Shown piece by piece: positions 38,933-62,871 of a DNA stretch of 64,000 nucleotides (its first letter is position 1; each line of letters begins with the position of its first letter). Source of the stretch: Candidatus Nanopelagicales bacterium (lineage in GTDB: Bacteria; Actinomycetota; Actinomycetes; S36-B12); NCBI GenBank assembly GCA_028687755.1, contig JAQTZL010000009.1, positions 16,853 through 80,852 of the forward strand, given 5' to 3'. Both the position numbers and the translations under genes were made by a program. The notes beneath the pieces are model-generated. The model made no database searches. It was given only the letters and a program-made list of their open reading frames with translations, and had not been told where the DNA came from.

Positions 38933-38993
38933 GTTGAACTCCTTTATCCTCCACTGCTAACCGTCAAACGCGGTGAGATCAGTAGAATATGTT
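38933..38993 (-). promoter_or_regulatory. Conserved accessory 5' leader, copy C
   Basis: AUUCUACUG can pair with CAGUGGAG(G/A)U just before AAAGGAG. Same architecture as copies A and B, with different bases in the stem. Confidence 0.65.
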
Positions 38994-39008
38994 CAGTAAG
39001 TATACATG
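38994..39008 (-). promoter_or_regulatory. CATRTATAnnnACTG promoter motif
   Basis: The minus strand reads CATGTATACTTACTG; transcription would enter leader copy C. Confidence 0.65.
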
Positions 39009-39024
39009 TATTTAAAAAGAGATC

Positions 39025-39062: not shown

Positions 39063-42000
39063 TTAACTACCGAAGTAGATGTCTGCCACCTGTCGTGAGG
39101 CTTTCTTCATGATCCGTCCAGCCAGCCCCATCAGGATAGGACTCTCTGTCACACGGTTCACGATACTCACGTAACTGAACTTGGCGTCGATAGGGTCACC
39201 AGACTCTGTGCGGATGTCAGACCTGAAGACATCGGACACCACAGACTTCATCTGTGATCCGAAGACACCCTTGTCTGCCACAGCCTGGGTCAGCTTGGTC
39301 TCGATGAAGACTTTCAGCTCGAACGTGTTAGGTAAGAGGTTCTTGCCCTCAGAGCGGTACTCGCTGTTTTCACGGTTGGTCTTGCTCTCCTCGAAGGTGT
39401 GCCTGGTCTCTTCGTAGAGCTGTTTGTCCATCTGCTGCGCAAGCTTCTTGACAGTCGGAGACATGTCACTCAGCTCACCGTTGTACTTCATCTCGTACCT
39501 GAAGATAGTCCCATCCATCTTGGCTTTGGGTGAGACGTTCGACAGGTGCTTCAGCATCTCGATGCTGGATTCAGAGAGGTTGGAGTAATCAGCGTTTTCG
39601 TCCACCACAGTAAAGAGCACGTCGTTGGGTGTGACCTTGCTGCCTTCAGGAAGGAGGTTGATGATGTTCTTCTGGAACTCCAGAACAAAGATCTTCTCCT
39701 TGATGTAGGACGTAGAAGCTTCTTTGCTGAGCTTGGGGGACACAGCTGACGAGTCTTCGTACACCGAGTCTTCCATGGACAGTGCCACAGTGATAGCCTG
39801 ATTGAACTTCATGATCAGTCTGGACGGGTTCAGCCAGTCTGGCTCAAAGAAACCCGTGTTGTAGGCGATGATGTCGTCCTTAGAGACTTTCTTGCCTTTG
39901 TCCAGTGTGGTGGCGATGCTGTGCTTGTAGACAGAGCCTTCCATGCGGCCGTAGGTGTTACCGATGCGATAGCCCACCACCTTGCCTGTCTTATATTCAA
40001 CGGTGATGAGTTTGTCGGTCTTCTCTATGACAGTGCCGTCACCTTCTGCTTTTGCGCAGTAGAGCTTACCAACTTTGTAGGGCATGATATACTCATACCC
40101 TGTTCGGACGATGGGCTGGTGATAGCCATCAGCGGCGATCGTATGTCCGTTCTGGATACTGATGAACCCTCGAAATCTTCAGTCAAGGTCGTTGTGTCGC
40201 TTCACAGCGGTCACTCTCTTCTTGACCCGCACCATAACGTGCAGCTTCAGGATTTCCCTGAAGTCTAGACTATGTCATCACCCTCTGTATCAACAGGTGG
40301 GGTGCTTCCTATTTCGAGACCACTTGGTCTCTACTCTACTCGCTTCCAGCTTAGCTGTGCTTTCGATAGTCGTTGAGCCCGCTACTCGGTGAGTAGATCG
40401 GCTGCAGGTTGAGCAATCTTCAAAACTGTTACCTTACCCTGATAGTTACTCAGGCCACGTGTGTGTCGCCACCTACGCTTGGTGTTTGAAGCTCTAAGCT
40501 TTTTCCTGCAATTAAGGAAGTTTTTCTCAACCTCTTTCGAGGAGGAGGGACATAACTGAACTGTTTAAACTCAAGCTCTTCCGAAGCGTATTTGTATAGC
40601 TACAAACCGTTCTACGGTGCCTCAAGTTTCAGCTCAATTCACATATCCTCTTGGGATCATCTAGCTCGGCCATAGGAGCCAGTAGGGTACTTGTGGAGAA
40701 CTTCAGTTCGGGATGCTCTTCGTGCAATTGATTCCCGGGGTCAATCTTTCCTCGGATGTTGCTGATCTTGGCGTATGGTGTCAAGAAGAAGTTCAGACCC
40801 ACATCGCTGCTGTCGACAGTAGCTTCTGATACCAGACCTGCGTCGTTTTTGTGAAACCTTCTCAGGTACTCTGGTGTGGCTGACTTGTTCAGTCCATCTG
40901 CGCCGGAGAACGTGACGGACTCCACTTCCTTCAAGTCGATGATAGGGTTGGACTCTTCGGTGATCTTGACCGTGGTGTCTCGTGTCACCGCGTTCCATAC
41001 CGCGTAAGGATCCAACTCGATCTTGCCTTTGCCGTTGCCCGTCAGCTTGTGTTTTCTGACAGACTCTGCCAAGACACGGTACATCAGGCTTGGTATCCGA
41101 TCGTAGCCCCGGATCTTGTTGCCAGCGTGCGGATCATTGGGGTCTTCGTGTTGGAACGTCTCCAACATGTTGTTAGCTCTGAGGAGAAGCTTCAGGTACT
41201 CATGGGGTTCGTTCATACCCTTCAAGTCAGCTGCCGCGATAGGGTCGATAAAGAGCTGTCTGAGGAGGTCCATCTCCTTCAGATGGATCACACCACAGTT
41301 GCGATGCTCCAAGAGTTCCAGGTAGACCTCTTTCAGGCCAAAGGACTCAATGGGGTATGACTTGGTGATGTCCTTGTAGAACAAGAACCCAGAGAACAGA
41401 AGTCGCTTCTCTTCGGTGTCTGTCACAACCACCAGCTTGGCGTTGTCAAACCTGAGAACGATTTCGTTCTTGGTGGGCTGGTATTGTTTTCTGGCTTCCA
41501 GGACAGTGAACTTGGTCTTGGTAACCGCAAGCAGGTTCTGGAGACCAACGTGGTAGGCGAGCACCACGCCTAAAGGGATAGCGTCCCCAAGAATCTTGAC
41601 AGTCGAGAAGTTGGACGGGAAAGACTCACCAGCGTATCCAAGAAGGTCTTCCAGTGATCCCAGATGCTCGTGGTTACCACCCTTGCTGTAGAGATGGATG
41701 TCACTGTTGATGTCCATGACCAGGATACGCTTGTCTTTCCGGAACCCGCAGTAAGTCATGCGCTTCTCTGGCTCTGACCTGGAGTAGCCATGAACACCGA
41801 TGTACGTGTCTTTGTCCAGGTGGTCCTTAGCGACCGACTCGTCGAAACTGAACGTGTAGTCATCTGTAGAGACTTCCTTGAAGTCACGTGACATCATCGC
41901 GTAAGCGTTAGGAACGTGGCTCAAGTTGTTGTAGACGTTGCCTGGAAGGATCCGTTTGATCTTTCCAGTTTGTTGCAGGTAGTCGTCTTTGATACGGGTC

Positions 42001-43922
42001 GTGATCTGGGCGTACTTGTCGTAAGCCCTGCGCTCTGTGCGCTCTACAAAGAGCTTGCCGTAAGCTGTGGTGAGCGCCACACGCGCTGGTCCGATCTTGC
42101 GGATAGGGACTTCTGTCCGTTGACGACGCATGCGAAGCTTGATGCCCGAGACAATCATCTCACCTTCGTCGTTGATCGTGGGAAGTCGAAAGTACACCGT
42201 AGACTCTTTGCCCCTGAGGGGTTTCAGGGTGAGCTTGTGGACGTCATACTTGCCACTGGACGTGCCGACCCTGTCAACTTCGTAGCCCTTGATGACCACG
42301 CCCGCTTTTTCCAAGTGAGAGACAGCGGCCAGCACATCCTTCTTGTAGACTTTGTCCACGTAGTGCTTGTCATGACTCATCAGCGTTTCATGCTTCCAGT
42401 AGTCAGGGACAAGGTTGTTGTCCATCTTGATCTCTGAAGCTTCGGGCGGAGGGATCTCCAGCTCAGGTGGGACGATCTTGTCGATGTCCAGAAGCTGATC
42501 ACCGTACGGAGATTTCAGCTCCTTGCGAGTGGTCACCAGTTTCTTCAGGGAACGGATCTCTGAGGTAGCGACACCTCCTGACATCTGGGCTTCGGTGATG
42601 ATCTCGGTATAGACGTCTTCTGGTGTAGAGTCTTTCAGAACAGCCTGAAGGTGATGATCGTCGTAGTTCACATGGAAATGCGACTGAGCATCTGGGGTGT
42701 CTGCTGTTTCTTCAGACACCTGTGCTTCGGCGGCCTGTATGGACTTGATGAACAGATCATCAGTCACACCAGAGATCTCTGCTGAGCTGGTCTCGATCAT
42801 GGAGTCCAGTGACATCTCTGGGAAGTCATCGAACTTGTCCAACTCTGGTGATGCGAGCTGCTTGGGCGGGGTTTGTGTGACCGACTTCTTGACCGCTGAC
42901 TGGATAGCGTAGTCAGGTTTGCGATCCTCAGGAGAGGGGTTGACAGAACTTTCGGGATCTTCCTCGAAGTCGTCCGTCTCTGGCACCTGAGGAAAGTCAA
43001 TGTTGGTTTGATCCGTAAGCGTCATTTCACCTGGATCAGCTGCTTCCAGTTTGGCCACCACCGCAGTCTGGATCTTCAGGAGCGCCACGATGAAGAAACG
43101 CTGGACTTTATCCACGTTGTACTTGGTCTTCAGAGGAAGCTCGTTCTCTTCCGACAGACCCACCAGGTCTGACAGCTTGAAGAAGCAACTGTGGCCCTTG
43201 TAGGTCATTTCCATGGTGATCTGTGGTGTCACCTCTACCGGGATCACAGACATCACTGAGCGACTTCTGGTGGCCTCTGAGAGGTACATGAACAACTGGA
43301 GGATGTTGTTCAGGTGGGGGTTGGTGACCACCCTGGCGTACGTGTTGGATTTCTGCTTCAGCAGAGTTTGGATAGCTGCTGGGGAAGGTATCAGTGACGG
43401 GACGGTCAGTTGCACAAACTGGTTGGATGATGGTGCGGCTTTGCACATCTTGACCACAGAAGCCCAGTACGTGGAGAACACGTTGGTGTGCCAGCTGATA
43501 TGGCTGGTCACGCTGGTCTTCAGTTTGTAGCGGTCTTTGAGGAGGTTGTAGTTGACGATCGAATTGACCGTGATGTCGGTGTTAGGCTCAGTGAACAGAT
43601 CCACCAGGCGAAAGCTTTTGGTGTTGTCTTCGCGCCACTTGAGGATTTCTTGTTGGGGGTTCCGATTGTGAACAGAAACCACTTCCAGCTGGGTCTCTGC
43701 GTCAACCACGTTGGTCAACGGGATCCGTTTGTTGTGAGGAAGATTGCCCAGGAAGGTCAGACTTCGGACAGGCATCCGGACATCAGAGTCAATGTCCAGG
43801 TAGTGGAAAACAGTCTCTCTGGGCGGCTGGACTTGGTCACGTTCAACGACAGGGGGAGACATCAACTGAAGTGGGGTGCGAACACCTTGCTTCAGTAGAA
43901 ACTGGGATTGGGCTAAAAGCAT
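39063..43922 (-). CDS. Virion-type RNA polymerase beta subunit, interrupted by a group I intron
   Basis: Spliced gene: exon 1 is 43922-40645 and exon 2 is 40167-39063 (about 1460 aa). ATG 43922 has AAAGG upstream. Exon 1 ends in 'LLAPMAELDDPKR', the counterpart of beta 'FLEHDDANRALMGSN'. Exon 2 opens with 'FISIQNGHTIAADGYHQPIVRTGYEY' (beta: MQRQAVPLL...GTGMER) and continues to 'GKKVSKDDIIAYN', 'MEDSVYEDS' and 'ADKGVFGSQMK' (beta: NKGVISR). Without splicing, translation stops at a TGA inside the intron (40629-40631). An acidic insertion of about 150 aa lies near residues 350-500. This matches the phiKZ gp178-type subunit of the RNAP packaged in the virion and injected to transcribe early genes. 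The set assignment is from memory of phiKZ. Confidence 0.85.
40168..40644 (-). ncRNA. ORF-less group I intron in the RNAP beta gene
   Basis: About 477 nt. The core is recognisable on the minus strand: P element AATTGCAGGAAA near 40503-40516, R element GCTCAACGACTATCG near 40363-40378, and S element ATAGTCTAGAC near 40263-40273, with P7 pairing GACTA/TAGTC. The P1 helix pairs exon end GGAU with GUCC around 40540-40550, giving the required U-G wobble at the splice site. Lower-stem extension AGCUGAA/UUCAGUU supports it. The 3' site (40167/40168, joining AT|G) is the best in-frame choice ending in G; a site 3 nt earlier (40170/40171) is also possible. There is no endonuclease gene inside. Confidence 0.85.
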
Positions 43923-43947
43923 GTGATGCCTTTCTGTGTTTGAGGGG

Positions 43948-44247
43948 TCAAACGATCGTTTCAGGCTTTTTGTCTGTGCGGTGCCTGAGGAGATAGGCGT
44001 CTTGTTTACGCGTGATCTCCAAGGTAACAACCAGGTCTGGGGTCGGGCAAAAGACAACCTTGAAACACATCAGCGATCGAAGACCTGCTTCCATCTCACG
44101 CAACAGACTTCTGCACTCTCTTCCTGAGTTTCGGTGGCCAACTGTACTCCCAAAAAACAAGGTATAGTCGGTACTGGGTGGTACAAGTTCACGGAGTCTC
44201 TGACGGAGAACTTCTTCTTTGCAGGTGTGGATCAAGGTAAAACTCAT
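43948..44247 (-). CDS. Hypothetical protein, 99 aa
   Basis: A small basic protein with Arg/Leu-rich helices ('RQRLRELVP', 'LLREMEAGLRSLM') and no recognised motif. GGAG precedes its ATG, and 25 nt separate it from the RNAP beta gene, so it is likely co-transcribed with it. It starts a minus-strand operon divergent from the terminase. Confidence 0.6.
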   Translation of the reverse strand: MSFTLIHTCKEEVLRQRLRELVPPSTDYTLFFGSTVGHRNSGRECRSLLREMEAGLRSLMCFKVVFCPTPDLVVTLEITRKQDAYLLRHRTDKKPETIV

Positions 44248-44344: not shown

Positions 44345-46486
44345 ATGACCACTATACTGTTCTCTCAGGACTGGTTGAAGCACCGTGGTGCCACCGTTCA
44401 CTACAACACAACAAATCCAAGCTTTTTGAAGTTGGCTGAGGTTTATCACCGCATGGGGGTGAAGAACAACGTCTTCCATCTGGCACTGTTGAACCCGCAG
44501 CTGGCTAACGTAGATCCGTACGCACCTGATCTTCCGTTGAAGGTCCAGGGCATGATAGCGCAGGAGTGCAAGCTGAACTTCTGGTACTATCTCAGAGAGA
44601 TAGAAAGGATCCCGACACCTGGTAGCACGGTGGCCACCAAGTTCCAAGCCAACCGCATGAACATCGCGCTGTACTGGCTGTACTTCAATCACGTCATGAC
44701 CATCGCGGTGATTCTGCGTCAGAATGGCAAGACCACGACCATCACTGCGCTAGGCAAGTACCTGCTGAACTTTGGCACTCTGAATAACACCATCAACTTG
44801 TTGACCAAGTCTGAAGGTCTGAAGGCTGAGACTTTGCTCAGACTGAAGGCCATGTACAACGAGTTGCCACCTTACCTGAACTTCTCTAGCCGTGGTGACC
44901 TGTTCAACACCGAGATGGTTCACCTGAAAGCTTTCCAAAACAAGTTTCAAGGGCACTTGTCCTCTGCGTCAGAGAAGCAGGCTGACAAGGTAGGTCGAGG
45001 CTTTGTGTCACCCACCAGTTTGGTCGATGAAGCGTGCTTTGTGGAAAACATCGAAACAGCTGTGGCGGCTATGCTGATGTCTGGTAACTTTGCTCGACGT
45101 GCCGCTGAGAAAGCAGGACATCCTTTCGGTACGCTGTTCACCACAACGGCTGGAGATATCGATGACCGTGACGGTGGCTTTATCTACGAGTTGGCCACAG
45201 GAGCCACTCTCTGGGATGAGAAGTACTACGACAGCATGGATCTGAAGTCGCTGAACGAAATCATCTACAAGAACTGCACAGCCAACAAGAACGGCTTTAA
45301 GCGCCCTATGGTGCACCTGACACTCAGCTACCTTCAGTTGGGTCTGGATGACGAGTGGCTCAGAAAGACGCTGGAAGAAAACGTGTCTACGCCAGAGAAC
45401 TTGGCGCGTGATCTCTTCAACCAGTGGAGAACAGGGTCTAAGCGGTCACCTATCGACAAACACCTGCTGGACATCCTCAGACAACATGAGTGCCCTACGG
45501 CACACAGCGAGTTCTATGCACCTTACAACCACCTGCTGCGGTGGTCTATCGACAAAGAGGAAGTCGGCCGACGCATTCAGCACAACCACAGCTTCATCAT
45601 CGGTGTGGATACATCTGACGGCTCAGGTGGTGACGATATCTCCTTTGTGGTACGTGACCATGTGATCGGTGACGTGATCTGTGTCACGACTTTCAACGAG
45701 ATCAACTTGATCACAGTGGCTGATATGTTCTTCAGTTTCATGATGGACTACCCTAACACCATGATGAACATGGAGCGCAAGAGTTCTGCCGCTGCTTTGA
45801 TTGACTTCATGATCCTGAAGTTCTGTGCGGCTGGTATCAACCCGTTTACGCGGATGTACAACACCATCTTCCAGAACAAAGAGCAATACAAAAAAGAATA
45901 CGAAGCTATCATCAGAGCTCGACCCGATGAAGTGGAGGTCTTCACAACCTACAAGAAACACATCGGCTTTGTGACCTCTGGCTCTGGTGTGACTTCTCGT
46001 TCTGAACTGTACAGCACGACACTGAACCACATGCTGAAATTCACAGCAAGTGTGACACGAGACCCGGCTTTGATCAAGCAGATCAGCTCTTTGGTGATCA
46101 TCAACAACCGCATCGATCACCCCGCAGGTGGTAACGACGACTTGGTCATCGGTGCTTTGTTAAGCTACTGGGTTCTGATCAACGGGCGTAACCTGCATCT
46201 GTACGGTATCGACACTTCAAGTATCCTGAGAAACAACACGGTCTACCTGAAGGAGAAGTACAAGAACGAAGAGGATGAGTACGACCACGCTGAGATGATG
46301 GCGTTGGAAGCTGAGTTCAACCGGCTGTTGGACGACTACAGGGCCGAACGTAACCCTATCTTGGCACAGCGTTTGGAACTGAAGATCAAACACATCGCTG
46401 GAAGCATTCGGTCCGATAGCAACATCGTGTCTGTGGAAGAACTGTTGAGCAACATCGCTCGTGAGAAACGCGTAACTCGATTGTAA
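44345..46486 (+). CDS. terL: Terminase large subunit
   Basis: 713 aa. ATPase: Walker A-like 'RQNGKTT' at 125-131 and Walker B 'TSLVDEA' at 224-230. RNase H-like nuclease: 'IIGVDTSDGSGGDD' near 417-431 (first Asp), 'NMERKSSA' near 476, and 'GGNDDLVIG' near 594 (last Asp pair). It is the motor that cuts and pumps DNA into the prohead at the portal. It stands alone on the plus strand, divergent from the RNAP beta operon, and ends against a cassette terminator. Confidence 0.93.
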   Translation: MTTILFSQDWLKHRGATVHYNTTNPSFLKLAEVYHRMGVKNNVFHLALLNPQLANVDPYAPDLPLKVQGMIAQECKLNFWYYLREIERIPTPGSTVATKFQANRMNIALYWLYFNHVMTIAVILRQNGKTTTITALGKYLLNFGTLNNTINLLTKSEGLKAETLLRLKAMYNELPPYLNFSSRGDLFNTEMVHLKAFQNKFQGHLSSASEKQADKVGRGFVSPTSLVDEACFVENIETAVAAMLMSGNFARRAAEKAGHPFGTLFTTTAGDIDDRDGGFIYELATGATLWDEKYYDSMDLKSLNEIIYKNCTANKNGFKRPMVHLTLSYLQLGLDDEWLRKTLEENVSTPENLARDLFNQWRTGSKRSPIDKHLLDILRQHECPTAHSEFYAPYNHLLRWSIDKEEVGRRIQHNHSFIIGVDTSDGSGGDDISFVVRDHVIGDVICVTTFNEINLITVADMFFSFMMDYPNTMMNMERKSSAAALIDFMILKFCAAGINPFTRMYNTIFQNKEQYKKEYEAIIRARPDEVEVFTTYKKHIGFVTSGSGVTSRSELYSTTLNHMLKFTASVTRDPALIKQISSLVIINNRIDHPAGGNDDLVIGALLSYWVLINGRNLHLYGIDTSSILRNNTVYLKEKYKNEEDEYDHAEMMALEAEFNRLLDDYRAERNPILAQRLELKIKHIAGSIRSDSNIVSVEELLSNIAREKRVTRL

Positions 46487-47723: not shown

Positions 47724-47781
47724 GTTGTACTCCTTCACTCCACTGCTAAGCCGACTGTGGCTGAGATCAATGGAGTATGTT
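47724..47781 (-). promoter_or_regulatory. Conserved accessory 5' leader, copy A
   Basis: ACUCCAUUG pairs perfectly with CAGUGGAGU (9 bp), immediately followed by GAAGGAG. See findings for covariation with the other copies. Confidence 0.75.
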
Positions 47782-47796
47782 CAGTAACTATATATG
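47782..47796 (-). promoter_or_regulatory. CATATATAnnnACTG promoter motif
   Basis: The minus strand reads CATATATAGTTACTG, directly upstream of leader copy A. Confidence 0.7.
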
Positions 47797-47820
47797 TAAC
47801 CGAAGATTTTTCAAAGAACT

Positions 47821-50545: not shown

Positions 50546-50983
50546 TTAACTCCTGCGTAAAGCAATGTCTGAGAGAATGCGCTCTCCGTCACCATAATTG
50601 CTGGCATCAATGATATTTCTCAAGTCATCTCCTTGGATCTCCATGACCTTGGAAAGCTGGAGTTGTTCACCTTTTTCAGTCATGACAACAGCAGACATCA
50701 GCACAGCGTAGTACCGAGGTGTGATCTCGACCGCACGGGCTGTGGCTTCTGCTTGAGCAAAGTGTCTGGAAAGAAGCCTGCGAAGATCGGTGGCTACCTG
50801 GGTAGCCATGCCGGCTGGATCATTGATGAACTGGTGGTAGGTGTTGGGAAGACTGATGAGGTTGTTCTGGAAGAGAAGTGACTGTGCTGCGTCTGTCAGC
50901 ATGTAGCACATGAACAGATGCGAGAGGGTAGACTGGCTGTCTTCTACCCACCCTTGGTCAGAGAGAGCTGCGAAGTTGTACAT
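50546..50983 (-). CDS. Hypothetical protein, 145 aa
   Basis: The start is set at ATG 50983 behind AGGAG; longer in-frame starts lack a ribosome site. Helical ('TQVATDLRRLLSRHFAQAEATAR'). Coupled to the 186-aa gene. No recognised family. Confidence 0.6.
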   Translation of the reverse strand: MYNFAALSDQGWVEDSQSTLSHLFMCYMLTDAAQSLLFQNNLISLPNTYHQFINDPAGMATQVATDLRRLLSRHFAQAEATARAVEITPRYYAVLMSAVVMTEKGEQLQLSKVMEIQGDDLRNIIDASNYGDGERILSDIALRRS

Positions 50984-51017
50984 AGGGGCTCCTGGTGTAG
51001 CGATCACACCATCGAAA

Positions 51018-51059
51018 GCAAAAAAGAAAAGCCACCCTCTGGTGGTCTTTTCTAACCCT
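51018..51059 (-). terminator. Cassette-type terminator, copy 2
   Basis: GCAAAAAAGAAAAG, CCACC/GGTGG, TCTTTTCTAACCCT. Almost identical to copy 1 including the flanking TAACCCT; closes the AcrIII-1-like gene. Confidence 0.85.
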
Positions 51060-51071
51060 TGGTTAGGGGGC

Positions 51072-51406
51072 GGTTACTCAATGGTAACCAAGAGCCACCG
51101 GATGCTGGCTCCTTCGGGGAGGGTTGTTGCCCCTTCGGGCAGTCGTGGACCAGAATACTGGCCCACGATCAGGTCGTCGCCCTTCTCCAGGGCGACGTTG
51201 ACCCGTGCCGGCGCGATGCCAGCGATGTCAAGCTCGTGGGCAAACAGTCCACAGGTGTCGGCATGGCCGACCGCCTGCCTGACCCGTGGGTCCAGGGCCG
51301 TATGACCCAGTCCACCCCAGCACTCTTCAGGTGCGAGGAGGTACTCACGCGTCTCCTCGCGGGTGATTTCGCGCATCTTGATGGTCGCTGTTTGTGCAGC
51401 GACCAT
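51072..51406. repeat. Array of perfect inverted repeats in the AcrIII-1-like gene
   Basis: GGTTAC (51072/51084), GAGCCA (51092/51106), TCGTGG plus CCAG (51143-51168), CGTCGCCC (51175/51190), GTCGGC (51257/51266), GACCC (51281/51288), GCGAGGAG (51333/51353) and ATGGTCGCTG (51381/51397). Two C(TTCG)G tetraloops lie at 51112-51138. Confidence 0.85.
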
Positions 51407-51442
51407 GTTGAAACTGAACGCATTGCAGAGGTATGTAGCCAT
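51074..51442 (-). CDS. AcrIII-1-like (DUF1874) ring nuclease, candidate anti-type III CRISPR protein
   Basis: 122 aa. 'YLCNAFSFNM' at 4-13 matches the 'YLANAFSINM' opening of the archaeal-virus AcrIII-1 prototype. 'VGHADTCGLF' at 58-67 places a His (His60) where the prototype has its catalytic His in 'IGHDST'. 'R[VI].[VI].LEK.D.L.V.Q...RL.EG' follows at 80-104, ending in Arg100 and Glu103. Members of the family cleave the second messenger cA4 and so silence type III CRISPR effectors. Start at ATG 51442 behind the conserved leader. The middle contains an insertion (CWGGLGHTALDPR) relative to the prototype. Function inferred from conserved residues. Confidence 0.85.
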   Translation of the reverse strand: MATYLCNAFSFNMVAAQTATIKMREITREETREYLLAPEECWGGLGHTALDPRVRQAVGHADTCGLFAHELDIAGIAPARVNVALEKGDDLIVGQYSGPRLPEGATTLPEGASIRWLLVTIE

Positions 51443-51500
51443 GTTGAACTCCTTCACCCCACTGCCAGACCAGATGTGATCGAGTTCAATAGGGTATGTT
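51443..51500 (-). promoter_or_regulatory. Conserved accessory 5' leader, copy B
   Basis: ACCCUAUUG pairs perfectly with CAGUGGGGU (9 bp with G-U pairs), immediately followed by GAAGGAGTTCAAC and the ATG. Confidence 0.75.
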
Positions 51501-51515
51501 CAGTGTGTATATATG
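51501..51515 (-). promoter_or_regulatory. CATATATAnnnACTG promoter motif for the AcrIII-1-like gene
   Basis: The minus strand reads CATATATACACACTG. Confidence 0.7.
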
Positions 51516-51541
51516 TAACTGAAGAAAAATCAAAAGTAACT

Positions 51542-51570
51542 CAGAGGAGAAGGTCTAGACCTTCTCCTCT
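51542..51570 (-). terminator. Terminator after the DHH phosphoesterase gene
   Basis: CAGAGGAGAAGGTC/GACCTTCTCCTCTG with almost no loop; insulates it from the AcrIII-1 cassette. Confidence 0.8.
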
Positions 51571-51576
51571 GCTACT

Positions 51577-52704
51577 TTAGTCTTTAGGCAAGTTCACAGC
51601 GATCTCGCCTGTCTTCAGAAACTTCAGCAAGGTGGCCAGGTTGGTGGTGAAACCGCAAGCCCTGTCGTGACCACCGCCGCCGAATGACTTAGCGATCCAT
51701 ACACACACGTACCCTTCGCGAGAACGAGTCTGATAGATCACCTTGTCTTTGCTGACAACTGTATAACACGCCATGACATGGATCTCAGTTTGGCTTTTGA
51801 AGTAGGCGTCGCACAACTCGCTGGCCAGATGGTTGGAGTTGTAAAGTGCCATTTTCCAGACACCTTCTTCGCCCGACTCACCCACCAGGTCAATTGGCGT
51901 ACGGGTGTCTTTGTTAACCACGGTCAACACGTCCACGCTGTTCTTCGCGTGTTTGGCGACGTATGCATCGTCGTGATCTAACAACGCCTGACCCGTTGCC
52001 ACGATCTCGTCCACCTTAGGTGGTGTCAGAAGCCCCACCAGCATTCGAGGATGTACCTGACGATAGCGGGTAAACCCGGAGTTGAAGGCTTTGGTCTCAG
52101 GATACTCAAACTTCCAGAGATCGCGATCAGAGACCCACTTGACGTAGTTGGGCACTGTCAGGATTTCTTCGGCGGCTTCCTCGGGCGTCAACAGTCCAAG
52201 AGTCATCCACTGGAAAAGCTTGTATGTCATCAGAGCACCGCTATTTGTCTCACAGTACAAATACGCAAAGCCGTCAACTGCAAATGCCTTCCATCCGTCA
52301 CAGGAGAGATCTGGCGCGTCCACCGCCAACCTTGGATTGAAGTCATCAAACCCTTCGAGACCGACAGTGGCACAGAAGTCCTGGTAGGCCGACTTGTGAT
52401 GATCAACGACTGTGATCGCATAGCCGCTGTTCAACATGGCGCGGATCTGACCTGGTTTCGGACAGAAGTCCAGAAAGTAAATCTTCATATCCGCGGTAAA
52501 AGCCACGCCGTTGTTTTCCTTGGCCACTTTTGTACCCAGATGGAGAACATAATCATCCGGGGACACGTCGTGGCTGTCGTAATTGATGGGGACGCTGTAG
52601 GCATCTGGCAAAAAGCTGAGCGCGATCGCCGACGCCATGAGCCCGTCTTGGCAGTTGGCGTGGTAGAACAAAACGTAGGCGCTGGTGGGAGATGTGTTTT
52701 CCAT
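51577..52704 (-). CDS. DHH/DHHA1-family phosphoesterase
   Basis: 375 aa from ATG 52704 (AAGGAA upstream). 'FYHANCQDGLMASAIAL' at 13-29 is DHH motif I, 'FLDFCPKPGQI' is motif II, 'VVDHHKSA' at 99-106 is the DHH box, and 'VSDRD' is motif IV. The C-terminal 'FGGGGHDRACGF' near 340-352 is the DHHA1 substrate loop. These Mn-dependent enzymes hydrolyse nanoRNA, pAp or cyclic and linear dinucleotides. The target here is unknown. It lies directly upstream of the AcrIII-1-like gene, in a separate transcription unit. Nucleotide salvage is the simplest role; removal of signalling oligonucleotides is the interesting alternative. Confidence 0.88.
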   Translation of the reverse strand: MENTSPTSAYVLFYHANCQDGLMASAIALSFLPDAYSVPINYDSHDVSPDDYVLHLGTKVAKENNGVAFTADMKIYFLDFCPKPGQIRAMLNSGYAITVVDHHKSAYQDFCATVGLEGFDDFNPRLAVDAPDLSCDGWKAFAVDGFAYLYCETNSGALMTYKLFQWMTLGLLTPEEAAEEILTVPNYVKWVSDRDLWKFEYPETKAFNSGFTRYRQVHPRMLVGLLTPPKVDEIVATGQALLDHDDAYVAKHAKNSVDVLTVVNKDTRTPIDLVGESGEEGVWKMALYNSNHLASELCDAYFKSQTEIHVMACYTVVSKDKVIYQTRSREGYVCVWIAKSFGGGGHDRACGFTTNLATLLKFLKTGEIAVNLPKD

Positions 52705-52714
52705 GATTGATTCC

Positions 52715-53512
52715 TTAGTGTTGAACTTTGACGTTGGTAATCGTGATGGTTGCAAGATTGTCTATGGCAGACATTTGTGCCGCTAATAGAGTCGACAACC
52801 GATAAGCTGGCACAGACCAGTCGCTGTTGTTGTAGCAGACAATGACCGAAGCGGTGTTAGCAGGTGCCTCTAACACACTCACCTCTGTGAACCAGGCGTC
52901 CGCTGTGATACCGGTGATTTCGCCGCAGTCGCGTTCGCCCAAGAGCTTGGTGAGCGGCAGTATCTCGCGCGCCAGCTGACGGACCATGAGGTCAGAGACA
53001 CCGTGAGATTTCTTGCCTGGAAGTTCTTTCTGGGTCGGCACAAACGTCACCGTCAACGACTTGATGCGATAACGAGTTTCAGCGCCGTGTACCCGGCTGA
53101 ACATACGCGCATCATCCCAAGCGGGATCAAATTGCGTGCCTGGAACATAGTCAAAGTCCAGCAAAGAAGCTGCTACGTCAACCAGAGTAGCGGACCGGAC
53201 ACGACCTTCACCGCACTGGACAATCACTGAGTGATTGCTTTGCTTGGCTTCTTTCAGCACTTTCAGGATGAGCTTGGCTGTTTCCTCGTCCAAATTGTTG
53301 GACGATCGGGTTTGCTCGTGGAAACACGGGTAGTACCGGAAATGGTGTATCGCGGCAAAGTCTTCAGGGTGGGAGGGTGGTTTGACCATCTCGTTGGGGT
53401 CCACGATCTGGATCAGAGTCACGGGTTGATCGGGTCTCTCGTACTGCCGATCACGGAGTTGGTCACGAGAGATGTTCGTGATCCAGGGCTTGTATTCTTT
53501 CTTTTGTGTCAT
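52715..53512 (-). CDS. Tyrosine/dual-specificity phosphatase-like protein
   Basis: 265 aa. 'VIVQCGEGRVRSATLVDVAASLL' (97-119) carries the CX5R P-loop of cysteine phosphatases (Cys100...Arg106) followed by Ser and the usual helix. A Gln replaces the His that normally precedes the Cys. The first 150 residues form the phosphatase domain; the rest (about 160-265) is unassigned. The stop lies 10 nt before the DHH start. It may dephosphorylate host proteins, nucleotides or RNA 5' ends. Confidence 0.7.
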   Translation of the reverse strand: MTQKKEYKPWITNISRDQLRDRQYERPDQPVTLIQIVDPNEMVKPPSHPEDFAAIHHFRYYPCFHEQTRSSNNLDEETAKLILKVLKEAKQSNHSVIVQCGEGRVRSATLVDVAASLLDFDYVPGTQFDPAWDDARMFSRVHGAETRYRIKSLTVTFVPTQKELPGKKSHGVSDLMVRQLAREILPLTKLLGERDCGEITGITADAWFTEVSVLEAPANTASVIVCYNNSDWSVPAYRLSTLLAAQMSAIDNLATITITNVKVQH

Positions 53513-53530
53513 GATCTTCCTAAAAGAAAA

Positions 53531-53560
53531 CTCTAGACTGCCCGAAAGGACAGTCTAGAG
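53531..53560 (-). terminator. Terminator after the 63-aa gene
   Basis: CTCTAGACTG/CAGTCTAGAG, a 10-bp perfect stem. Confidence 0.8.
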
Positions 53561-53567
53561 GGAACAG

Positions 53568-53759
53568 TTAAATGCTCAGCAACTTACGCAAAGTGGGACT
53601 TGCGTTGGGGTTGCGCTTCAGCAGGTTCTTGCGAAGCCAGTCGATGTTACCACCGGTGGCGTGGACAGTCCGACGAAAGTCCGGGAGCACCAGGTCTTTG
53701 TTGGTCAGCAGCTGGTTGAGTTCTTCCAGCTGGGTCTTGGTCAGAGTTTGCTGCGTCAT
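53568..53759 (-). CDS. Small helical protein, 63 aa
   Basis: Helical, with the pattern 'TKTQLEELNQLLTNKD...GNIDWLRKNLLKRN', like helix-turn-helix or assembly-domain small proteins. The start overlaps the upstream stop by four bases (ATGA). Function unknown. Confidence 0.65.
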   Translation of the reverse strand: MTQQTLTKTQLEELNQLLTNKDLVLPDFRRTVHATGGNIDWLRKNLLKRNPNASPTLRKLLSI

Positions 53760-54385
53760 TTGTTGATTTTTGCGTTGGGGTCTGTTTGATGTGTAAAGTC
53801 AATCTTCACATTGCTGAGAAGGAAGTCCAAGTTGTGGTAGGTGTTGACCATGATGAACTGTTCGTAAGGAAGCAGCTCTCTGTCACCAGGGACCAGATCT
53901 TCCTCATAGAACGCATAGTGCATATGCTCGTCTGTGTCTGTCACGACACCGTTCATGACTCGGCGGTAGTTGTAGTCCCAGTGTCCGACTTCGTTACCGA
54001 AGACGTTCTTGTAGGAGTCCGAGTATCCGTCGATGTTCTGCTCAAGGTACAACTGCTTCACTTTAGGGTGAGCCATGATGTACCGCTGCATGGTCGGGTT
54101 GGCTGTCTGAAACTCAGCCACCGTTGTCAACTCCACAAAGTAGTTGTCCAAGGCTGTGGTTCCTGACGATTGCAACTGATTCATGATACCCGACCGGATG
54201 AACGTGTCGGTGACATAGTTGTAGCTGGCGGTCACTGCTTGACGGATACGGTCCAGGTAAGGATTGCCGTGATGCGCTGGTAGTGATTCCAGCTGTCGTG
54301 CCAGGTACCCTGCCACGATGTCTGACTTGTCCCCGTAGAGGACATAGGACAGACCAGCTTCTGGTATGGTGGCGACTACGCCCAT
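53756..54385 (-). CDS. Conserved hypothetical protein, 209 aa
   Basis: Mixed alpha/beta, Tyr/His-rich, with no catalytic motif seen. It directly abuts the upstream 202-aa gene. Member of the operon running from the RNAP beta' N-half to the 63-aa gene. Role unknown. Confidence 0.65.
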   Translation of the reverse strand: MGVVATIPEAGLSYVLYGDKSDIVAGYLARQLESLPAHHGNPYLDRIRQAVTASYNYVTDTFIRSGIMNQLQSSGTTALDNYFVELTTVAEFQTANPTMQRYIMAHPKVKQLYLEQNIDGYSDSYKNVFGNEVGHWDYNYRRVMNGVVTDTDEHMHYAFYEEDLVPGDRELLPYEQFIMVNTYHNLDFLLSNVKIDFTHQTDPNAKINK

Positions 54386-54994: not shown

Positions 54995-57863
54995 GAGTAG
55001 TTCTCGTCGTTCATCCAAGCTGCCAAAGTCGAAATGTGTGTCTTTGGGAACTTGATGTTGTTACTGAAGTCGTTGGGGCCAGAGAAACCCAACACGTTGT
55101 GATATGGACGCATGTTTTCTGTTGCCATTGTGACCAGATCTGTCAACGGCAAGTAGAGATTCAGCTCATCCAAGGAAATTGTACGCATTGCTGCGCTTTT
55201 ATCGCTTCTACTAATTGAGGGATCTTATCTTTCAGCTGGACCCGAAAGATAGGATGCTAATAACTTTGCATTTTCAACGGTTGAATAGACTGCTACCCAA
55301 TCGCCGATTTGTCTTATTTGATTTTTCTTCAAACAGACTGTGACCGATTTTTTACTAAGCTTTGTCTGCTTAATAAACTCTACCGCGCTAGGGAACACAT
55401 AGCACTTACGATCAATGAAATTGAATGCAAGCACTTGCTTACGCCCATGGCTTTTGGCACGTTCGATTTCCGCAGCAGTCATTTGCGGAAAATCATTACA
55501 ACTGTAGGCGATTTGATACCGCTTGCGAAAAACACGCGGATACGCCGTTTTAGATATAGAGACATAGATGTGACTCGGACTTGTCTGGAAGTACCGTGCA
55601 GCCTCACCTATTGAACTGAAATGTCGTTCTTCGCCGGAGTAGATATCCATGGACTTTACAGCCGCGGATGTTCTATCGGCATCTGACTTAAAGTTGTTTC
55701 GTCTGTTATGGGTCAGCTCGGCAGGTAGGGAATGACTAGCTTTACGGAAACAGAAGATAACACCCGCAATTTCCGTACCGTCTTTTATCGAATCCCAAAC
55801 ATCTAGCGCTGTGCTCGCATGTGCTTTAGCGGCGTCGTGCGCATTATAGTAGCCAGCTGTTGGCACACCAGCCTTTACCGCGTATACCGAAATACACGAT
55901 CGGTCAGCTCGCATCACCGCGCTGTGAGTGTTGTTCTCTAAGGCTGTCACCCACTCTAAGTTGGTCGCGCGGTTGTTGGTTAAATCAAGATCTCTGTGAT
56001 TAACTTGATGTTGATCCGGTCTCTTTCTTGGTATATGAGTTATAGCTACTAGCCTGTGAACTCCAAAAGTTATCCACAAGTTTTCGCTAGTTTTTATGTT
56101 GACGGTTATGTAGCCGTCGCCGTTAACGCAAGTGTTTCTTTTATTTCCGTCGACACCATAGACATTGCCGTCAGTGTCGACGTAAAAGTCATTGCTAAAT
56201 GGTATCTTTTTTCTTTCCATTGATTTCCTTTTCAATTTGTCGTAGAAGCTGCCGGCTCGTTATTTCCGGCTGTCTTAAATTGTCCAGATTTAAGACTCCG
56301 ATGGTCACCCACCGGTTTAGACTATATCTTCATCCTTACGGATGCTTCCTGTTTCGATTTAAAGGCTGGCGCCTACCACTTGGCTCTACTCTACTCGCTT
56401 CCAGCATAGCTGTGCTTTCGATAGTCGTTGAACGTTACGCGTAGCACGCTTCACAGCGTTCTTTAGCGTCTTCGCTGCTGATTGTCTCTACCAATTACTT
56501 TTCAAACCGTGGCGTATTGTATTTCTACATCCGCTGTGGTGTAACTGTCTAGCGAGAGTTTCCAGCAATTAAGGAAGTTTATAACGATGGCAATAATTCT
56601 ACCATCGTGGTCACTGTTAAATCCAGCGCCAATCCGGTCAGACATGGAGAACGTCGTATCGTCAGGGTCGTTCTTGATCCGAACAATACAGACCCGCTGG
56701 ATACTGCCGCGGTGCAACAGCGGGTTACGGCTGAGCAGAGCGACGATACCGCCAGGGGTACTGGCGATCATCTTCTCGAAGGCCTGCTGGATCCAAGGGT
56801 GATGCAGCCTGACATGGTAAGTCAGGAACCGCACCTGTTCCTTGTAACTCATCTGGCCTTCTTTGTCCAGCAGGTTCAGCAGGAACGGTCGGAACAGCGT
56901 GCAGGCCACACTCCACGGAAGATGCAGATCATCGTGTCTGTGAGCACCCTGGATACTCACGATCACCGCCCGGGCAGTGAAGTGGTTCCGGGAAGACCCG
57001 ATGTTCTGCCTCACCAAGCCGTACTTCTTGAAGATGTAGTCCTTCATGTACTTCTCGTAGAAGGCACCCATCTCGATCAGTGACTTGGCCACCTTGACCT
57101 GCTTGATAGCAGGTGGTCGTGTTCGCAGATCGATACCTGACAGCCGCCGAATCACGTTGATCGGAGAGAGAAGAGCGCGGTCGAAGAACCGTCCTAACTC
57201 GTTGGACTCTGACGCAAACACGATCTTGTTCGGGAAGGGCAAGTAGTTGCTGAAGATCTCCTTTTCATTCTCACGCAGCAGCGCCATGAACGTGAAGTCC
57301 GTCGTCTCCTTGGTATACAGGATCTCTGTCTCCAGGAGTTCGATGATCCGGTAGAAGTTCTGCACAAAGGAGTTGTACCCCTTGGGGATCTTGTGCGACT
57401 CCAGCAGGTGATCCAGCTTCTCGATGGTCATCATGTTACTCATGCTCTTGGCCATGGTCGCACGATAGGTCGGGATCAAGATGTGTTCGATCAACGACAC
57501 TTTAGGACGACCGATGGTGTACCTGAGGACCAGGATCCGCATCATGGCTGGCGAGATGAACAGCTCCACCCCCTGAGGCTTCTGCACCCAGAGCAAGAAG
57601 GAGATCGGGTCATCCAGTCCGTTGACCACCTTGGTGTTACAAAGGTGGCACACGGTCCCTACGTAGTAGGTGCCTGTGGTACATCCGCACTGGCACGAAG
57701 GGATCAGCGACAGGTTGTCCTGTGCGTAGTTCTTCATGGCCATGGCGTCGATCAGCTCTTTGTTTTGGGCTGACAGCGGGTCGATCTGATTGATCAGTAC
57801 TTTATCGGAGGTGATCCGGTTGTAGAGGTCGTCATAGGAGATCAATTGAAGTGCCGATGGCAT
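54991..57863 (-). CDS. Non-virion RNA polymerase beta' subunit, N-terminal half (phiKZ gp55-like), interrupted by a group I intron
   Basis: Spliced gene: exon 1 is 57863-56601 (421 codons) and exon 2 is 55170-54991 (59 codons), together about 480 aa. Exon 1 holds the zinc ribbon (CQCGC..., CHLC at 57-75), 'GLVRQNIGSSRNHFTARAVI' (beta' [22 protein letters not shown]) and 'LLSRNPLLHRGSIQ' (NRAPTLHRLGIQ). It ends in 'FNSDHDG'. Exon 2 starts 'DELNLYLPLTDLV', completing NSDHDGD, the counterpart of the Mg-binding NADFDGD loop, with the last Asp supplied only by exon 2. Unspliced mRNA would therefore give a catalytically dead subunit. The gene follows ChmA as gp55 follows gp54 in phiKZ. Confidence 0.88.
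55171..56600 (-). ncRNA. Group I intron with HNH endonuclease in the RNAP beta' gene
   Basis: 1430 nt. P1: exon end GAUGGU pairs with intron GCCAUC (U-G at the splice site, positions about 56581-56606). P10: exon-2 start GAUGA pairs with the intron bases just 5' of that guide (AUUAUU). P element AATTGCTGGAAA near 56560-56571, R GTTCAACGACTATCG near 56418-56432, and S TATAGTCTAAACC near 56315-56328, with P7 GACTA/TAGTC. The last intron base is G. The endonuclease ORF lies 3' of the catalytic core. Confidence 0.9.
55225..56220 (-). CDS. HNH homing endonuclease encoded in the intron
   Basis: 331 aa from ATG 56220 (AAAAGGAAA upstream). Residues 7-50 are a NUMOD4-like strand-rich segment. 'VHRLVAITHIP' at 54-64 and 'VNHRDLDLTNNRATNLEW' at 73-90 make the HNH nuclease (His75 general base, Asn residues binding metal). 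Three NUMOD1-like DNA-binding repeats follow (about 105-160, 190-245, 265-320; for example 'FSSIGEAARYFQTSPSHIY'). It should cut intronless copies of the beta' gene at the insertion site and so spread the intron between co-infecting phages. Confidence 0.9.
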   Translation of the reverse strand: MERKKIPFSNDFYVDTDGNVYGVDGNKRNTCVNGDGYITVNIKTSENLWITFGVHRLVAITHIPRKRPDQHQVNHRDLDLTNNRATNLEWVTALENNTHSAVMRADRSCISVYAVKAGVPTAGYYNAHDAAKAHASTALDVWDSIKDGTEIAGVIFCFRKASHSLPAELTHNRRNNFKSDADRTSAAVKSMDIYSGEERHFSSIGEAARYFQTSPSHIYVSISKTAYPRVFRKRYQIAYSCNDFPQMTAAEIERAKSHGRKQVLAFNFIDRKCYVFPSAVEFIKQTKLSKKSVTVCLKKNQIRQIGDWVAVYSTVENAKLLASYLSGPAER

Positions 57864-58153: not shown

Positions 58154-60004
58154 TTACCAGCTGCGAACGTAGCCTTGTTGGTAGGCGCCGTAGCTGCCGT
58201 AGCCGACGTTGGCGTTGCCAGCGAAGCGGATGTCCTGGCCGAGCATCGCGGAACCGAAGTCCGCAGTGGCACGGCGCACAAACATGTCGTTGCCACCGCT
58301 GGTGGAGTCGAACAGAGGCTGGCAGCCAGATGCGTTCAGAGCACCGATCCAGGCACGGAGGCTGTCGGTGTTAAACGTGAGGCGATCGTACATTTGTTTG
58401 TACACCGCGGTATTGCCGGACATGTCGTCGATCATCTTCCGGCGCACGCAAGCACGCAGTTCGGCCGGCATCGTGGTCGCGTACAGAGTGTTCGTGTACT
58501 CAGTCAGGATGCTGGGGCTTTGGCTGGTGTCTGCCACCCAGTTGGCCACCGCCAGGTAGCTGGACAGGTGACGCAGGTCACGGTAACCGTCCTTGGCGCG
58601 GTAGAAGCCGCCATGGATTTTGTTGGTTGCCACGTGGAACATCGGCACGTTGGGTTGCACATAGCGGCCGTTGGTGACGAAGCTCAGGAACTCAGCCATG
58701 CGAGCGTACGCATTGGGGTCGTTCAAGAAGTGCATGTACTGGAAAATCGACGTTGCCCACGTATTGGGGCTGGCCTTGGGCAGATCGATCGAGATCATCA
58801 TGTCCGGGAAGCACATGGCCGTCAGGAAAGTCACCAGTTCAGCGGGCTGGAAGTTCTTGGACTTGGTGTCGTAGCGACGACCGTAGCCAGATGGATCCAG
58901 CGAGATGTTGCCTTCCAGGTTCAGCGCACCGATGTCGTTGAGGTCGATCTCGTTTTTGCGAGCGGGCGTGGGACGGAACGCCTGAGTCCAAGACATGTCC
59001 TGGTTCAGAGACGCCACGCTGGCCACACCCATCATCATCAGATCAGGTGTCAGAGCGTAGGTGGGGCTCTCGATACCAGTGATGATGAAGTTCGACACGA
59101 ACTTCTGTGTTCCCATCACGCCGTTCATCGGACGAGGCTGGGTGTACTCGAAGTCGATGTAGCCGTAAGTCTGGCTAATGATCGTGTTCTCTCCCATCTG
59201 GTTGACAGAGCGACGGTTGGCCGCTGTGTTGTTCCGGAATGAGAGGGTCACGCACACGTCTTGGCGAATGGGCATGCCCACTGCGTCGAGGTACGAGGCC
59301 TCGTCAGCGTTGAACGCGATCGAGACATAGAACTTGCCACGGGGGTTGTCGGCGATCAGCTGCTGCAGGTTGCAGCCGCGATAGTCGTTCACCCGGAACT
59401 CGGTCTCGGCGCCCAGGGCGTTGAGGGAGTTGGACAGCAGGCCGTAGACCGATTCTTCGGTGTCAGCGTTGAACTCGTTGGGGACGAGCACGCTGTCCAC
59501 CAGCTGAACATCGGCAGGGGGGACGGACGTAGCTGCCGAGACAGCGATACGCACTTTCTGTGCGTAGTTTTCGTCCATTGCCTCGGCCGGTGTCAACACA
59601 AACGTGTAAGGCACGTTGTTGATGTTTTCGGTGTACGACCGCGGATAGGTGCCGGTCTTTTCGATCATCAGTGTGTGTGCCGCACACACGCCGCCCAGGA
59701 TCCGGATCACGATGATCGCGGAGTAGTTCAGGCCAGAGTCGGTAGTCAACAAACGGATGACTTTCCATTGACCACCGTCAGTGGCGGTCTCGGTGATCTT
59801 CTTCATGGTGTCGCCGAACAACTTGAAGATCTTGTCAAAGGTGTCGCCACCGGTGCCGAAGCGGCCGAGCTGATTGGCCAGTCCAAAGGAAACGGGGTTC
59901 AAAGTTGCTGCGGGCTGCTGGCGACGAAAGTTGCCATCGTCTTGGGTTTGGGCGGATTGAGTGGGTGCGGCTGCTGCGGATGTGAAAGCGTTGTGCGTTG
60001 CCAT
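58154..60004 (-). CDS. chmA: Candidate chimallin (ChmA), phage nucleus shell protein
   Basis: 616 aa from ATG 60004 (AGGAG upstream). Length falls between the phiKZ and 201phi2-1 shell proteins (about 600-630 aa). Flexible termini flank a folded body: an N-terminal Ala/Gln/Thr stretch and a Gly/Tyr-rich tail (GYGSYGAYQQG), as expected for a protein whose tails lock a 2-D lattice. It sits directly upstream of the beta' N-half and microprotein, as gp54 sits by gp55. The gene is high-GC with tightly biased codons, a sign of strong expression, and is closed by a strong terminator. ChmA builds the shell that encloses phage DNA. No sequence motif alone proves it; a major capsid protein is the main alternative. 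Confidence 0.7.
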   Translation of the reverse strand: MATHNAFTSAAAAPTQSAQTQDDGNFRRQQPAATLNPVSFGLANQLGRFGTGGDTFDKIFKLFGDTMKKITETATDGGQWKVIRLLTTDSGLNYSAIIVIRILGGVCAAHTLMIEKTGTYPRSYTENINNVPYTFVLTPAEAMDENYAQKVRIAVSAATSVPPADVQLVDSVLVPNEFNADTEESVYGLLSNSLNALGAETEFRVNDYRGCNLQQLIADNPRGKFYVSIAFNADEASYLDAVGMPIRQDVCVTLSFRNNTAANRRSVNQMGENTIISQTYGYIDFEYTQPRPMNGVMGTQKFVSNFIITGIESPTYALTPDLMMMGVASVASLNQDMSWTQAFRPTPARKNEIDLNDIGALNLEGNISLDPSGYGRRYDTKSKNFQPAELVTFLTAMCFPDMMISIDLPKASPNTWATSIFQYMHFLNDPNAYARMAEFLSFVTNGRYVQPNVPMFHVATNKIHGGFYRAKDGYRDLRHLSSYLAVANWVADTSQSPSILTEYTNTLYATTMPAELRACVRRKMIDDMSGNTAVYKQMYDRLTFNTDSLRAWIGALNASGCQPLFDSTSGGNDMFVRRATADFGSAMLGQDIRFAGNANVGYGSYGAYQQGYVRSW

Positions 60005-62777: not shown

Positions 62778-62836
62778 GGTTACTCCTTAAATACCCGACC
62801 GCTAGTTCTGATGTGAACGAGTTCAGTGGGTGTGGG
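62778..62836 (-). promoter_or_regulatory. Conserved accessory 5' leader, copy D
   Basis: Shares ACTGAACTCG, a TAGC and TTAAGGAGT blocks with copies A-C. The stem is weaker (ACCC/GGGT), so this is the most diverged copy. Confidence 0.5.
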
Positions 62837-62851
62837 CAGTAGCTATATATG
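62837..62851 (-). promoter_or_regulatory. CATATATAnnnACTG promoter motif
   Basis: The minus strand reads CATATATAGCTACTG, directly upstream of leader copy D. Confidence 0.7.
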
Positions 62852-62871
62852 CGACCATAACTTTGTCAGAA

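Follow-up and report, generated by a model that had tools for sequence, protein, structure and literature searches.

Viral ring nucleases of the AcrIII-1 family (DUF1874) are described as specific for cyclic tetra-adenylate (cA4), the signal of type III CRISPR systems (PMC7854544; here and below, papers with PMC numbers are cited from excerpts of their text). In a survey of 28,114 genomes, AcrIII-1 was the commonest phage ring nuclease, with 36 genomes, among which a jumbo phage is possible (PMC12409355). A comparison of jumbo phages names DHH proteins and other enzymes as counters to nucleotide signals, and the terms "AcrIII" and "ring nuclease" are absent from the available part of that paper (PMC7824862). 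A 2024 survey, which compared 331 jumbo phages with 135 known anti-CRISPRs by BLASTP, concludes that phages with ChmA or PhuZ have no verified ones (PMC11448039), and according to a 2026 review Tad1 is the one anti-defence protein so far described for jumbo phages (PMC13282480). We found no report in the open-access literature of a ring nuclease or a DUF1874 protein in a chimallin-encoding or nucleus-forming jumbo phage. Here we describe an AcrIII-1-family gene (51074..51442, minus strand) in a 64,000-nucleotide stretch ("the window") of contig JAQTZL010000009.1, which was binned with a Candidatus Nanopelagicales bacterium. The window carries the genes of a phage that is predicted to form a nucleus, and the gene begins right after a leader that the phage uses repeatedly. 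We propose that this leader-driven gene lets the phage cut cA4 and so silence type III effectors that are triggered by its transcripts; we put the probability of this at roughly 75%.

An AcrIII-1-family protein with its catalytic residues

The gene encodes 122 amino acids plus a stop codon and starts with an ATG at 51442, with AAGGAG (51449-51454) 6 nt upstream. It is a genuine member of the AcrIII-1 family, not a chance similarity. The protein matches PF08960 (26.7 bits, E = 6.4e-6, curated cut-off 26) and PHROG 5063 (E = 3.4e-12). It has 512 matches at E ≤ 0.01 in a database of 5.8 billion proteins. Among the 120 of these 512 matches that were listed, and setting aside the protein's own entry, the six nearest are 60-66% identical over almost the full length (the closest, 65-66%), and one of the six is encoded on a 106-kb contig. 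When the genome that carries it was searched in six frames, the PF08960 profile missed the gene at E ≤ 0.001, whereas a search with the protein as query recovered it.

A single-sequence search against solved structures gave only weak matches (best E = 0.033). With a profile of 20 sequences (the window protein and 19 listed relatives), the search found the structures of AFV3-109, SIRV1 ORF114, STIV B116 and 6SCF (2j6b, E = 7.1e-14; 2x4i, 7.7e-13; 2j85, 1.5e-12; 6scf, 5.7e-11). Structure prediction of the monomer gave a confident model that matched the AcrIII-1 fold, with 20-29% identity to AcrIII-1 in structural alignments. The best match of the protein in BFVD was the DUF1874 protein of Thermoanaerobacterium phage THSA-485A (E = 3.6e-11).

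The first-pass annotation, which was made from the sequence alone, had called this gene an AcrIII-1-type ring nuclease because of its N-terminus and a few motifs, and these are as it described them: YLCNAFSFNM aligns with YLANAFSINM of SIRV1 ORF114 (2x4i), and the protein has VGH (H60), LEKGDDLIVGQ, and RLPEG (R100 and E103). His60 (codon at 51263..51265) is the equivalent of the catalytic His47 of SIRV1 gp29, which is Ala in the 6SCF chain. Arg100 (51143..51145) and Glu103 (51134..51136) align with Arg85 and Glu88 of SIRV1 gp29, which we take to be active-site residues. Across 203 aligned proteins, H60 is conserved in 201, R100 in 202, and E103 in 200. So the family, the fold, and the catalytic residues of the first-pass annotation all hold up, and two of the outcomes that it gave as refuting, the lack of a significant DUF1874 match and a different fold, did not occur; as to the activity, we consider it very likely, given the characterised relatives, that the protein is a cA4 ring nuclease. 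Within this known family the enzyme itself looks unremarkable, and the novelty is in its carrier and its regulation.

One feature does set the protein's subfamily apart. Residues 38-52 (51287..51331, minus strand) are an insertion of some 15 residues, with LGH at residues 45-47, that is shared with the eight closest relatives (P0002-P0009) and is shorter or missing in the remaining 11 rows of the 20-row alignment (A2). Only 10 of the 203 aligned proteins have any residue in the column of residue 47. As most members of the subfamily have a second LGH or LGY, this stretch could change the ligand preference, and jumbo phages do counter other cyclic-nucleotide systems, for example with Tad1 (PMC13282480). 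The protein might then bind cA4 or some other cyclic nucleotide as a sponge, or it might be a ring nuclease that acts on another signal, such as those of CBASS-like (cyclic-oligonucleotide-based anti-phage signalling) systems. We think that this is unlikely: a sponge would have no need of the three catalytic residues, which are all kept, and the described specificity of AcrIII-1 for cA4 (PMC7854544) argues against another target.

The carrier is a phage predicted to form a nucleus

The first-pass annotation placed the gene in a nucleus-forming jumbo phage, and genes that predict a nucleus were indeed found. The window encodes chimallin, the nuclear shell protein (58154..60004, minus strand; PHROG 4795, E = 1.2e-60). 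One of the 55 window proteins, presumably this one as the member is not named, matches PF25677 (Chimallin_Phikzvirus, E = 1.1e-17). PhuZ lies elsewhere on the same contig (L004:1616-2542; PHROG 4733, E = 3.2e-53), with the Pfam Tubulin match below its cut-off; the PhuZ tubulin is common in nucleus-forming phages but not obligatory. Five open reading frames (ORFs) of the window match PHROG families for multisubunit RNA polymerase (RNAP). All are on the minus strand: a subunit of PHROG 2987 (56502..57863), two subunits of PHROG 3015 and PHROG 3295 (4199..8223), and a subunit of PHROG 3148 that a group I intron splits in two (39063..44057).

Of the 50,697 records in the named-phage collection, 46 match the window's chimallin, and the best match, from Burkholderia phage FLC9, has 29% identity, so this phage is a distant relative of the known chimallin phages. 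The window, FLC9, and phiEaH2 also have blocks of gene order in common.

The window is part of an 87,745-bp contig (C9) in a 2.5-Mb bin of 21 contigs (G000), which also has its own cellular rpoB, on C3. Two other contigs of the bin, C13 (63,838 bp) and C14 (50,906 bp), very probably belong to the same phage, because they carry copies of the leader (see below) and because 9 of 10 large proteins that we scanned on them match phage families, including those of the major head protein, of a DNA polymerase, and of an SbcC-like subunit. The three contigs are not joined; together they have 202,489 bp.

A leader that recurs at 13 places

The 83 nt just upstream of the AcrIII-1 gene (51443..51525, minus strand) form a leader that ends at the ATG. 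It comprises an AT-rich, promoter-like core (TTACATATATA, 51508-51518), the stretch ACTGAACATA, a hairpin (at about 51456-51495), and the AAGGAG. We first saw the shared element by comparing upstream regions. Other copies in the window, also on the minus strand, are at 47724..47806, upstream of a small gene; at 38933..39018, upstream of a gene for 128 amino acids; and at 62778..62861, upstream of a gene for 195 amino acids. Further copies are at 15606-15687 and 16267-16349 of L003 and in L115, L116, and L117.

Allowing up to five mismatches, the first part of the leader occurs eight times on C9, always on the minus strand, while shuffled sequences (n = 10) gave 0 or 1 per strand. Six copies can be aligned across 83-86 nt, and all copies have 82-87 nt. 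A covariance model of those six, searched at E ≤ 1e-3 against the 21 contigs of the bin, found 13 places: six on C9, three on C13, and four on C14. (The six on C9 are the model's training set, and 150 of 177 candidates were scored.) At this threshold, there were no matches on the other contigs of the bin. In 12 of the 13 copies, a script found an ATG within 2 nt of the leader's end; for the thirteenth (47724-47806), the script picked another ATG, and a GTG follows the leader directly. A promoter-like hairpin leader at 13 places on three contigs is new here.

The hairpin shows covariation among the copies. In the six-row alignment, 90.8% of the cells pair, and the covariation score is 0.489 versus 0.306 in shuffled alignments, with none of 500 shuffles as high. 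Five pairs changed on both sides, which 144 of the 500 shuffles equalled. With 12 copies fitted to the model, 87.6% of the cells pair and both partners vary in 9 of 15 pairs, but this alignment is biased towards the structure. The six copies outside the training set form a similar outer stem on their own. No Rfam family matched the leader at its gathering score. We also considered a sigma-70 promoter for the AcrIII-1 gene and rejected it: there were 2 sites in 4 kb, where 2.1 were expected, and none at the gene.

In jumbo phages that encode RNAP, early operons are preceded by an AT-rich motif that is about 10 nt long and centred near position -10 (PMC7598289). Because of this motif, we infer that the element combines an early promoter and a folded 5' leader. 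The timing bears on function, because the AcrIII-1 of SIRV2 failed as an anti-CRISPR when it was expressed from its native, middle-stage promoter, from which its authors conclude that early expression is needed (PMC11065993). The 12 genes behind the other copies may likewise serve early takeover or counter-defence, and the shared leader is a handle for finding more counter-defence genes in this phage. By eye, HEAGH is present in one of the 12 (L003), and another (C14:39941) looks like a nucleotidyltransferase.

Conservation of the leader beyond this phage is suggestive only. A search of 16 loci from relatives gave two matches up to E = 1. The better of them, in L038 (E = 0.45 over 16 loci, or 0.16 over six), extends right up to the DUF1874 ATG. 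When 238 stretches per locus were ranked with a matrix from the 13 leaders, the upstream region ranked first in L038 and within the first two in L044, and low at the other chimallin-linked loci (16th in L008, 25th in L013, and 61st in L025); a few high ranks are expected by chance over 69 loci. By eye, TTTCARTCNCATA-like motifs lie upstream of DUF1874 in several other virus records that have RNAP or chimallin, at L038 (9919-10000), L044, L008, L009, and L013, and the ranking within each locus backs those of L038 and L044 only.

The gene lies in an insert between two genes that adjoin in relatives

The AcrIII-1 gene is in a 2,748-nt insert (51008..53755, minus strand) between two genes whose homologues are adjacent in FLC9 and in phiEaH2; this position is new here. 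The flanking genes, both on the minus strand, are a member of PHROG 3294 (50546..51007; homologue of FLC9 gp379 and phiEaH2 gp207) and a member of PHROG 3254 (53756..54385; homologue of FLC9 gp380 and phiEaH2 gp206). Only 115 nt separate their homologues in FLC9, and 47 nt do so in phiEaH2, so both of the relatives that we compared have the site without an insert. In FLC9, the block extends as it does in the window, with a homologue of 49986-50543 on one side and the RNAP subunit and chimallin on the other. In phiEaH2, the flanking pair adjoins the same RNAP subunit. The homologue of 20718-21884 (SbcD-like in phiEaH2) is near the site in both of these phages and 28 kb away from it in the window.

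Besides the AcrIII-1 gene, the insert encodes, on the same strand, a DHH-family phosphoesterase (51577..52704; PHROG 4771, with a DHHA1 match that falls short of the Pfam cut-off), a protein that matches dual-specificity phosphatases weakly, also below the cut-off (52715..53512), and a 63-amino-acid ORF (53568..53759). Terminator-like hairpins lie just upstream of the leader (51542..51571) and just downstream of the AcrIII-1 gene (51032..51045), on the minus strand as well.

By analogy, the DHH protein could act on cyclic oligoadenylates or on linear ones. The Sulfolobus DHH-DHHA1 nuclease degrades cyclic oligoadenylates, and DHH proteins of jumbo phages have been proposed to counter signals (PMC7854544, PMC7824862). 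With both genes in 2.7 kb, they might provide a two-step clearance, in which the AcrIII-1 protein opens the cA4 ring and the DHH protein hydrolyzes the linear oligoadenylate. This, too, seems improbable to us: the DHH family (PHROG 4771) is found in 5 of 23 other DUF1874 virus records but never within 15 kb of DUF1874, and the upstream hairpin separates the two genes. We reject a conserved DHH-AcrIII-1 cassette, as just 6 of 24 records (G000 and the 23 viral ones) have DHH, and DUF1874 adjoins it only in the window's contig.

DUF1874 in other viruses, with and without chimallin

We scanned IMG/VR with the 20-row alignment and found 70 DUF1874 loci in 69 records, some of which are near-duplicates. 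Chimallin was found in 4 of these 69 (G001, G005, G012, and G027), and in all four it adjoins a homologue of the same RNAP subunit as in the window. The search for chimallin covered 44 virus records, which include all four matches, and 25 shorter records (the longest has 40 kb), which include none. Because many of the records are fragments, four is a lower bound. That DUF1874 is present in four other chimallin records, and that these DUF1874 genes do not form one clade, is new here.

We tried a single origin for the DUF1874 genes of chimallin phages, and the approximately unbiased (AU) test rejected the one-clade constraint (p = 8.1e-7, 81 rows), with the provisos that these are 81 of 203 proteins with few columns and many unresolved forks, and that two of the five chimallin-linked rows have long branches. 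A wider quick tree of 184 rows needs five changes, of which the starred branches force only two. These trees suggest that chimallin phages gained or exchanged DUF1874 repeatedly, with the chimallin state mostly undocumented for the other rows.

PHROG 3148 matches at E < 1e-100 in 9 of the 23 larger records and weakly in three more, but it also matches in 10 of 14 cellular controls. Several large DUF1874 records have a phage RNAP family and no detected chimallin: G002, G015 (232 kb), G016 (231 kb), G017, G020, and G029 (306 kb). Two copies of DUF1874 are on the 120-kb record G002 (L009, 4400-4714, and L038, 10001-10300), and L011 has two copies on a 7.5-kb record. A scan of genome_contigs gave 10 DUF1874 loci, five of them in bins from candidate phyla. 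A single-protein query of IMG/VR with chimallin gave no relatives, probably because the patterns are strict.

We also asked about the AcrIII-1 fold in cultured Erwinia phages. Foldseek of the AcrIII-1 model against BFVD lists proteins from phiEaH2 and Kwan (E = 1.3e-3 to 2.5), and we assigned the phiEaH2 entry to gp156 (NC_019929, 126672-127109) by its length alone. (Relatives of gp156 are in Asesino, SPN3US, and Huxley.) Against this candidate, the gp156 family has no DUF1874 profile match and lacks RLxEG. If gp156 is the BFVD entry, cultured relatives may hold a relative of the fold that lacks the active site.

The proposed role and what weighs against it

We propose the following mechanism. 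As in characterised relatives, a dimer of the protein would hold cA4 between its subunits, and His60 would cut it to A2>P. Judging by the leader, the virion RNAP would transcribe the gene early in infection, so the enzyme should be present when Cas10 starts making cA4. Cutting cA4 in the host cytoplasm would then switch off type III effectors that were triggered by exposed phage transcripts. The nucleus would keep DNA-cutting systems away from the phage genome, and the ring nuclease would remove the signal that RNA sets off. An anti-type-III role for the protein is likely by analogy to its relatives, if somewhat less so than its enzymatic activity.

The claim of the first-pass annotation that this gene covers the exact gap left by the nucleus is too strong. 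The effector NucC is activated by cyclic tri-adenylate (cA3). The type III system of Serratia stops PCH45, which is a nucleus-forming phage, by way of NucC (PMC13282480, PMC7854544), and a cA4-specific enzyme would leave this route untouched. An AcrIII-1-family enzyme would thus close the gap for cA4 alone, and it would be relevant where the host's type III effectors respond to that signal.

Besides this published route through NucC, several results weigh against the proposed role. The PF08960 match is just 0.7 bit over the cut-off, and one chimallin-linked DUF1874 protein elsewhere (L013) has lost the Glu. Early transcription is deduced from a motif. Searching the named-phage collection with four DUF1874 proteins as seeds (from the window, L008, L025, and L044) gave no record of jumbo size; the largest was that of a 104-kb Fusobacterium phage. 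Also, we rejected a Cas10 in the co-binned bacterium, as a search with one Cas10-palm profile matched a GGDEF protein and nothing else. (In the bacterium's family, 12 of 78 genomes match a Cas10 profile at E ≤ 0.001, and 5 are over the cut-off, all with 30 bits or less; E. coli matches as well, so these are likely to be cross-matches to GGDEF proteins.) Finally, the SIRV2 precedent implies that family membership alone is no proof of an anti-CRISPR role, as that AcrIII-1 failed from its native promoter (PMC11065993).

The co-binned bacterium might not be the host. The nearest matches of the bin's RpoB are PDB entries, which we take to be actinobacterial, whereas the 46 phage records that match chimallin are named after proteobacterial genera, so the phage and the bacterium could have been binned together by chance. 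If the true host is actinobacterial, then it is outside the host range of the named chimallin phages.

Some of these results would also fit a passenger, that is, a mobile and enzymatically able gene with no part in infecting the present host, much like the AcrIII-1 of SIRV2 under its native promoter (PMC11065993). The insert is missing from FLC9 and phiEaH2, the DUF1874 genes of chimallin phages are not one clade (AU p = 8.1e-7), and no Cas10 was found in the co-binned bacterium with the one profile. But the gene has the shared leader and flanking terminator-like hairpins, its frame and active site are intact, and it has relatives that are 60-66% identical over nearly their full length, so it is probably under selection somewhere, and we rate a passenger as a little less likely still than a sponge or a two-step clearance. 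An error of assembly or binning that joined the gene to a chimallin contig is very improbable and already largely refuted, even though the contig is from a metagenome-like bin that mixes a phage and a bacterium, because the flanking genes are neighbours in FLC9 and phiEaH2, the leader is the phage's own repeated leader, and four other chimallin records carry DUF1874.

This leaves an early cA4 ring nuclease that acts against type III immunity as our preferred explanation. A broader hypothesis, which we hold only tentatively, is that nucleus-forming phages carry a second shield, at the level of RNA: unrelated DUF1874 lineages would have supplied them repeatedly with an early cA4 ring nuclease, since their transcripts stay visible to type III systems. 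In this phage, the gene would be part of a leader-marked regulon of small counter-defence or takeover genes, with the DHH phosphoesterase finishing the degradation.

Other features of the window

The large terminase is at 44345..46486 (plus strand). Near the AcrIII-1 gene is a virion structural protein (48258-49904) with 271 matches in the named-phage collection. Group I introns (Rfam RF00028) at 40245-40576 and 56298-56610 lie in or beside two RNAP genes. HNH_3 is matched by one of the 55 window proteins, which the scan does not name; by eye, it is the ORF at 55225-56235, next to the second intron. PHROG 3148 is in pieces in the related records G001 and G002 as well. Two large adjacent proteins of 943 and 1291 amino acids (21970-28751) resemble Kelch-repeat tail proteins; among the 55 window proteins, two match Kelch and two match a tail-collar domain, again with members not named.

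Comparison with known systems

The prototype, AcrIII-1 of SIRV1 (gp29; PDB 6SCF and 2X4I), is from an archaeal rudivirus and does not have the stretch of about 15 residues that marks the window's subfamily. The best match in a named phage, at 36% identity, is the DUF1874 protein of THSA-485A, which likewise lacks the stretch; THSA-485A has a 42-kb genome and is not a jumbo phage. Crn2, including the Csx1-Crn2 fusion of Marinitoga (8Y7F and 8Y7G), is host-encoded, as a fused off-switch in a CRISPR locus, whereas the window's gene is viral and stands alone. FLC9, the closest named phage by chimallin (29%), shares the block of genes at the site but does not have the insert with the AcrIII-1 and DHH genes.

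Tad1 of phiKZ, which we presume to be unrelated to the window protein, is a sponge for the signals of CBASS and Thoeris, unlike the ring-nuclease family described here. It is likewise a jumbo phage's counter to nucleotide second messengers (PMC13282480). The presence of a known anti-CRISPR family in five chimallin virus records (the one described here and four others) is at odds with the picture from the survey and the review. It also leads to a prediction: type III pressure on transcripts would be strong enough for phages that build a nucleus to counter it.
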